Source of the DNA: Cucumis sativus
Lineage: Eukaryota > Streptophyta > Magnoliopsida > Cucurbitales > Cucurbitaceae
Length of the DNA: 64,000 bases
Direction: 5' to 3'
Assembly (NCBI RefSeq): GCF_000004075.3
Contig: NC_026656.2
Location: forward strand, 10,540,001-10,604,000
Shown here: piece after piece, positions 46,631 to 46,755 of the stretch
Position numbering within the stretch: position 1 is the stretch's first letter
Layout: each line of letters begins with the position of its first letter
Notes under the pieces: generated by a model
What the model was told of the DNA's origin: nothing
Databases searched by the model: none
The model's input: only the letters and a program-made list of their open reading frames with translations
Position numbers and translations under genes: made by a program

Positions 46631-46755
46631 CTAGATTTGTTGAGGAGAATGGAAACTGGTTCGAGAACGTTTGTATGAATGAGCTTAAAAAGAGAATCTT
46701 TCATCCGAATGATCTCGGACCAGGCTTCATTCTCGCCAGCTCTTCAGTTATCTAG
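46631..46755 (+). ncRNA. MIR166: MIR166 precursor hairpin
   Basis: The 3' arm holds a 21-nt mature sequence at 46715-46735 whose first 18 bases are UCGGACCAGGCUUCAUUC, identical to miR165/166. Positions 19 and 21 differ from the commonest form (ending UCG instead of CCC). The 5' arm (about 46645-46664) pairs with it: gagaatgg, two mismatched As, then ctggttcga. Pairing continues beyond the duplex on both sides. Toward the loop, 46665-46679 pairs with 46700-46714. At the base, ctagat (46631-46636) pairs with atctag (46750-46755). This is the classic MIR166 layout: mature strand on the 3' arm, a two-base bulge in the duplex and a loop of about 20 nt. miR166 guides cleavage of class III HD-ZIP mRNAs (REV, PHB, PHV, CNA, ATHB8), setting leaf polarity and vascular pattern. 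Confidence 0.95.

Follow-up and report, generated by a model that had tools for sequence, protein, structure and literature searches.

The stretch of cucumber (Cucumis sativus) DNA analysed here, called the window below (64,000 nt; C2:10540001-10604000), appears to contain a functional, divergent MIR166 gene on its plus strand, a reading that we hold, on the evidence of the sequence, with a probability of about 0.87; the MIR166 gene itself is real, and probably functional. We prefer this explanation because of the exact 18-nt miR166 core, the stability of the hairpin (z −6.99), the Rfam match, a paralogue elsewhere in the genome, a double change to an A-U pair, the count of pairing among related hairpins, a printed product and the target sites. 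According to this reading, a plus-strand transcript would fold into the hairpin, DCL1 would excise a 21-nt duplex from it, and the 3'-arm strand, once loaded, would direct an Argonaute protein to class III HD-ZIP mRNAs, which would be cleaved at their miR166 site. The locus would be a paralogue of the copy at C3:9.6 Mb, and its main product in cucumber would more probably than not be shifted 2 nt towards the loop. What counts against a functional gene is the Rfam score below the cut-off, the minus-strand score of 45.1, the printing of the cucumber product as a 20-mer in the unshifted register, the report of canonical forms only from the shoot apex, the lack of miR166i in the melon passages and in pumpkin phloem sap, the worse target score of the shifted form and the basal pair opened by the change at position 21. 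As a MIR166 copy, the locus is ordinary in kind and should tune leaf and stem development genes; its notable points are a displaced internal loop and the fit of this loop to the shifted register.

The hairpin, a pre-miRNA with its basal helix at 46631-46755 (+), was defined by its fold and by a match to the Rfam family RF00075 (MIR166). It folded at −53.6 kcal/mol with none of 200 shuffled sequences being equally stable, and the wider stretch 46600-46790, the folding of which the preliminary description had proposed as a check, was stable as well (−65.2 kcal/mol, z −4.76). Positions 1-18 of miR166 occur exactly at 46715-46732, within the 3' arm of the hairpin, and this is the sole miR166 match in the window at up to 3 mismatches (mean of dinucleotide shuffles, 0.03). 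Both features taken to mark a member, a miR165/166 core on the 3' arm and a stable stem-loop whose stem contains the mature strand, are present at the locus. The best Rfam family for the hairpin was RF00075 (46639-46740, 54.3 bits, E 2.8e-12), and a search of the 226.6-Mb genome with this model found the hairpin again at the same place and on the same strand (E 3.7e-10). The score lies below the gathering score of 60 bits, so that by the automatic rule of Rfam the hairpin is not a member; its minus strand scores 45.1 with the same model, and seven other loci in the genome exceed the cut-off, each on the sense strand. We use the name divergent MIR166 because of the paralogue, the exact core and the printed product. 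The stop-to-stop frame that spans the hairpin (46540-46755) had no Pfam match. The preliminary description is supported in the identity at positions 1-18, the 3'-arm placement, the hairpin, and the MIR166 identity and strand; the introns that it suggested found no support, and the register may account in part for its variant 3' end.

The exact 18-mer occurs ten times in the genome (seven forward, three reverse) and not at all with a reversed-pattern control. Positions 19-21 read CCC at six of these loci, CTC at two, CCG at one and TCG at the window locus; the search that gave these 3' ends also returned two unrelated places with 3 mismatches and 2 control matches. The closest paralogue, at C3:9.6 Mb (L004/L015), is similar along the whole hairpin (72.6% over 106 nt, E 2e-8), whereas for the eight other copies the alignment with the window hairpin is limited to 18-30 nt at and beside the mature strand. 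A DNA search with the whole stretch was insensitive, returning only the window locus and missing this paralogue. The two hairpins share the CTGGTTCGAGA star core, the CGTTTGT shoulder and the GATCTCGG 3' arm, whereas four adjacent bases of the star arm that read CTGT in the paralogue read GAAA in the window, and further differences include a G-to-A change at the base of the star, C19 to U and C21 to G in the mature strand, and the position of the loop. Outside the hairpin, the likeness is confined to three short segments (32-44 nt), of which two lie in opposite orientation.

The changed position 19 remains within the helix. Since the C-to-U change at 46733 is matched by a G-to-A change at 46646 on the other arm, pairing at this position is kept, and this replacement of G-C by A-U is unique to the window among the eight conventional hairpins aligned, the seven other rows having G-C. 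Three pairs of the family structure are broken in the window: a basal one at columns 6/186, where the change at position 21 leaves G opposite G, and those at columns 16/176 and 17/175. With the family structure set by hand, 91.5% of 200 cells in the eight hairpins pair, as against at most 57% when the structure is slid by 1-3 columns. Changes on both sides were found in four of 25 family pairs (shuffle mean, 1.2; four reached by 6 of 500 shuffles), and the count of further pair types in the family structure was unremarkable, being reached by 239 of 500 shuffles.

A 2 × 2 internal loop opposite canonical positions 12-13 is typical for MIR166 and is not known to be part of its definition. The window has its internal loop at positions 10-11 instead, where AA at 46654-46655 faces GC at 46724-46725, and positions 12-13 are paired (A-U and G-U, probabilities 0.99-1.00). 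In folds of stretches chosen by hand, these two positions are unpaired in all seven other conventional hairpins, joined by position 10 in the copy at C4:21.5 Mb. The loop of the window corresponds to guide positions 12-13 only given a register shifted by 2 nt, and the shifted duplex has a dot-bracket string identical to that of the canonical duplex of the C3:9.6 Mb copy. Because the window pattern, pairing at 12-13 and none at 10-11, is reached by 24 of 256 tetramers by chance, the fact that the loop coincides with the shifted register is no more than suggestive. According to the passages of an Arabidopsis study, mismatches occur in the miR166 duplex at guide positions 12, 13 and 16, the first two of these being important for its loading into AGO10 (PMC9508841); a mismatch at guide position 16 is absent from the window duplex in both registers. 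Canonical copies such as those at C6:20.6 Mb and C6:7.07 Mb are like the window in the 3'-arm mature strand, the exact positions 1-18, the architecture and the candidate target class, and the window is unlike them in U19 and G21, in the A-U for G-C at 19 and in the loop at 10-11. The preliminary description had noted the changes at 19 and 21, which stand, but mentioned neither of two less usual features, the compensated pair and the loop. Two loci, L002 (C2:24.09 Mb) and L005 (C3:34.95 Mb), are of a long-loop MIR166-like type with a 3' arm ending in TTCATTCCTCACAC; their 5' arms lie about 240 and about 700 nt upstream, respectively, and miR166 positions 12-13 are paired there too. Neither was among the genome-wide matches to the Rfam MIR166 model, and a literature search found none of their 5'-arm pieces in print.

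The fold allows two registers of the mature strand. The alternative mature miRNA in the canonical register, TCGGACCAGGCTTCATTCTCG at 46715-46735 (+), would be accompanied by the predicted star AGAATGGAAACTGGTTCGAGA (46646-46666), and the candidate main miRNA in the shifted register, TCTCGGACCAGGCTTCATTCT at 46713-46733 (+), by the predicted star AATGGAAACTGGTTCGAGAAC (46648-46668), both stars following from the geometry of 2-nt overhangs on the fold. A star starting at about 46644 had been expected earlier, and these overhangs move its start to 46646 in the unshifted or 46648 in the shifted register. Compared with the majority form of the genome, TCGGACCAGGCTTCATTCCCC (six of the ten exact 18-mer loci), TCGGACCAGGCTTCATTCTCG differs at positions 19 and 21, precisely the two substitutions claimed in the preliminary description. 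A mature strand beginning 2 nt upstream would end at 46733 and contain the C-to-U change alone, and what was read as a variant 3' end may then partly reflect the register.

On balance, we lean towards a main product in cucumber that is shifted 2 nt towards the loop. The passages of the Luffa report give TCTCGGACCAGGCTTCATTCT as Lc-miRn8-3p (81 and 71 reads) together with its star AATGCGGTCTGGTTCGAGAGC (10 and 18 reads; PMC6214963), which lies in the same register as the predicted shifted star of the window. The same 21-mer appears as Lsi-miR166u in the bottle gourd passages (PMC5066974), and those on blueberry print it with the melon name cme-miR166i-p3 set beside it (PMC5751366). From the common C-to-U change and the GTTCGAGA star, we infer that Luffa miRn8 may be the orthologue of the window locus. 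The Luffa star as printed reads CGGT where the window has GAAA, which leaves position 15 as the sole internal mismatch of the Luffa duplex; a coupling between register and loop, if real, would therefore not be common to Luffa. A shifted miR166 with 2271 reads is also given for Acacia, in passages where cme-miR166i is connected with a 23-mer whose 3' end is canonical (PMC3981707). Cucumber miR166i is printed as the 20-mer UCGGACCAGGCUUCAUUCUC in the unshifted register, with the letters of 46715-46734 (PMC10631058), under a name that may be homology-based. This published miR166i is probably the product of the window locus. For the cucumber shoot apex, the passages list csa-miR166 from 8 loci in the canonical 3' form only (PMC6238408). 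Among the literature passages covered, the variant letters appeared for Luffa, bottle gourd, blueberry and cucumber only. The melon passages did not mention miR166i, nor was it found in the phloem sap of pumpkin (PMC7093818), and open-licence PubMed Central yielded no printed mention of the star strand of the window locus.

Candidate targets were found in the same genome. The HD-ZIP III miR166 site is split by an intron: five loci have the half-site CCTGGTCCGGATTC behind AG, and all five have a match, at a distance of 2.7-4.6 kb, to the MEKHLA domain, which we take to be a marker of class III HD-ZIP proteins. The upstream half reads TGGGATGAAG before GT at four of these five loci and TGGAATGAAG at the fifth (L041). 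Complementarity to class III HD-ZIP mRNAs was seen at the four candidate loci that were scored, with penalties (lower being better) of 2.5-3.0 for the unshifted window form, 3.0 for canonical miR166, 5.0 for the shifted window form and 4.5 for a shifted canonical form. The duplex energies at the sites were −37.7 kcal/mol for the canonical, −35.7 for the unshifted and −35.6 for the shifted window form. These scores indicate that the changed 3' end costs nothing in penalty and about 2 kcal/mol in energy. A genome search with the reverse complement of the shifted 21-mer at up to 3 mismatches returned only the ten MIR166 loci and no new targets, and a search for a contiguous HD-ZIP III site returned nine MIR166 loci and two other places with 3 mismatches. 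At a sixth MEKHLA place (G000:C4:4602519-4602662), the exact miR166 half-site of the other five was not found.

How do other explanations fare with these data? That the 18-mer merely sits by accident in an inverted repeat is hardly conceivable, with nothing but the RF00075 score below the cut-off speaking for it, whereas none of the 200 shuffles folds as well and the similarity to the paralogue runs along the whole hairpin. It is also very unlikely that the locus is a decaying, non-expressed MIR166 pseudogene that arose when the C3:9.6 Mb copy was duplicated. Such a pseudogene would be consistent with the low Rfam score, the four adjacent star-arm bases that differ from the paralogue, the three broken family stem pairs and the flanks that resemble the paralogue only in the three short segments mentioned above, but the mature core is intact, the altered position 19 is still paired across the stem, and the passages mentioned above print the variant 20-mer from cucumber and show the same 21-mer with a star sequenced in Luffa.

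The register is a question within the functional MIR166 reading. A cut in the canonical register (46715-46735), with stable pairing at 12-13, mainly AGO1-type loading and an escape from AGO10, is compatible with the core of our preferred explanation and is possible, if somewhat unlikely. It agrees with the printed form of cucumber miR166i (PMC10631058) and with a target score better than that of the shifted form (3.0 versus 5.0); the paired 12-13 and the mismatch at 10-11 would suit it as well, since mismatches at 12-13 matter for loading into Arabidopsis AGO10 according to the passages of PMC9508841. The shifted 21-mer printed for Luffa and bottle gourd, and the shifted miR166 known from Acacia (2271 reads, passages of PMC3981707), argue for the other register. 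A stronger form of the shifted reading is that register and loop moved together, the cut shifting by 2 nt and the star changing from CTGT to GAAA, with mismatches again at guide positions 12-13. The duplex would then have an AGO10-type shape with a 5'-shifted guide and a weaker HD-ZIP III pairing, amounting to an AGO10-directed weak or decoy miR166, and we consider this doubtful. Under the functional, divergent MIR166 reading in general, the displacement of the loop might change the cut site and the protein that takes the product. The displaced loop offers a natural test of whether AGO10 reads the position of the mismatch from the 5' end of the guide or reads the mature sequence, and a ready comparison exists in the relative from Luffa, in which an identical mature strand is combined with a different loop.

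The upstream neighbour is a TPX2-domain gene with open frames at 42467-44412 (+), separate from the miRNA gene; its domain, matched by Pfam TPX2 within the ORF 43730-44077 (E 7.1e-11), lies about 2.6 kb upstream of the hairpin on the same strand, which fits the WVD2-like gene named in the preliminary description. We take it to be WVD2/WDL-like, and the limits of the gene are partly presumed. A TATA-like run at 46578-46588 (+), identified by motif match, is a candidate core promoter; it precedes the base of the hairpin by 43-53 nt and starts 137 nt before the core. Four of the ten MIR166 copies (the window, at 46607-46611, and L004, L011 and L014) have the motif GCATG at 108-186 nt before the mature core, in three of these four no more than 60 nt behind a TATA-like run, and two further copies have it at 234 and 429 nt; it is possibly a shared promoter element of MIR166 copies.

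Donor-like sites reported near 45342, 45630 and 46771 are present as GT at 45344, 45629 and 46773 (scores 7.57, 7.83 and 5.82), but the one adjacent to the hairpin is unremarkable against the background of the best score in 150 nt (median 4.4, 90th percentile 7.4, 95th 8.4), the weight table following the plant consensus. The donor scan lends no support to introns around the hairpin; the best donor within 150 nt after it is another site (6.65), and the other nine MIR166 copies score from 2.5 to 11.7. A scan for bacterial promoters and terminators, with models uninformative for a plant, gave nothing. Elsewhere in the window, a tRNA-Gly (GCC) gene lies at 11560-11630 (−), and a plastid-like tRNA-Ser (GCT) at 26958-27045 (−), with a plastid psbl-rps4-type Rfam match, probably stems from chloroplast DNA inserted into the nuclear genome. 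The fragment at 57570-57836 (+), which matches Pfam RVT_2 just below threshold (30.3 bits, cut-off 31.6), is probably the remnant of a Copia-type retrotransposon.
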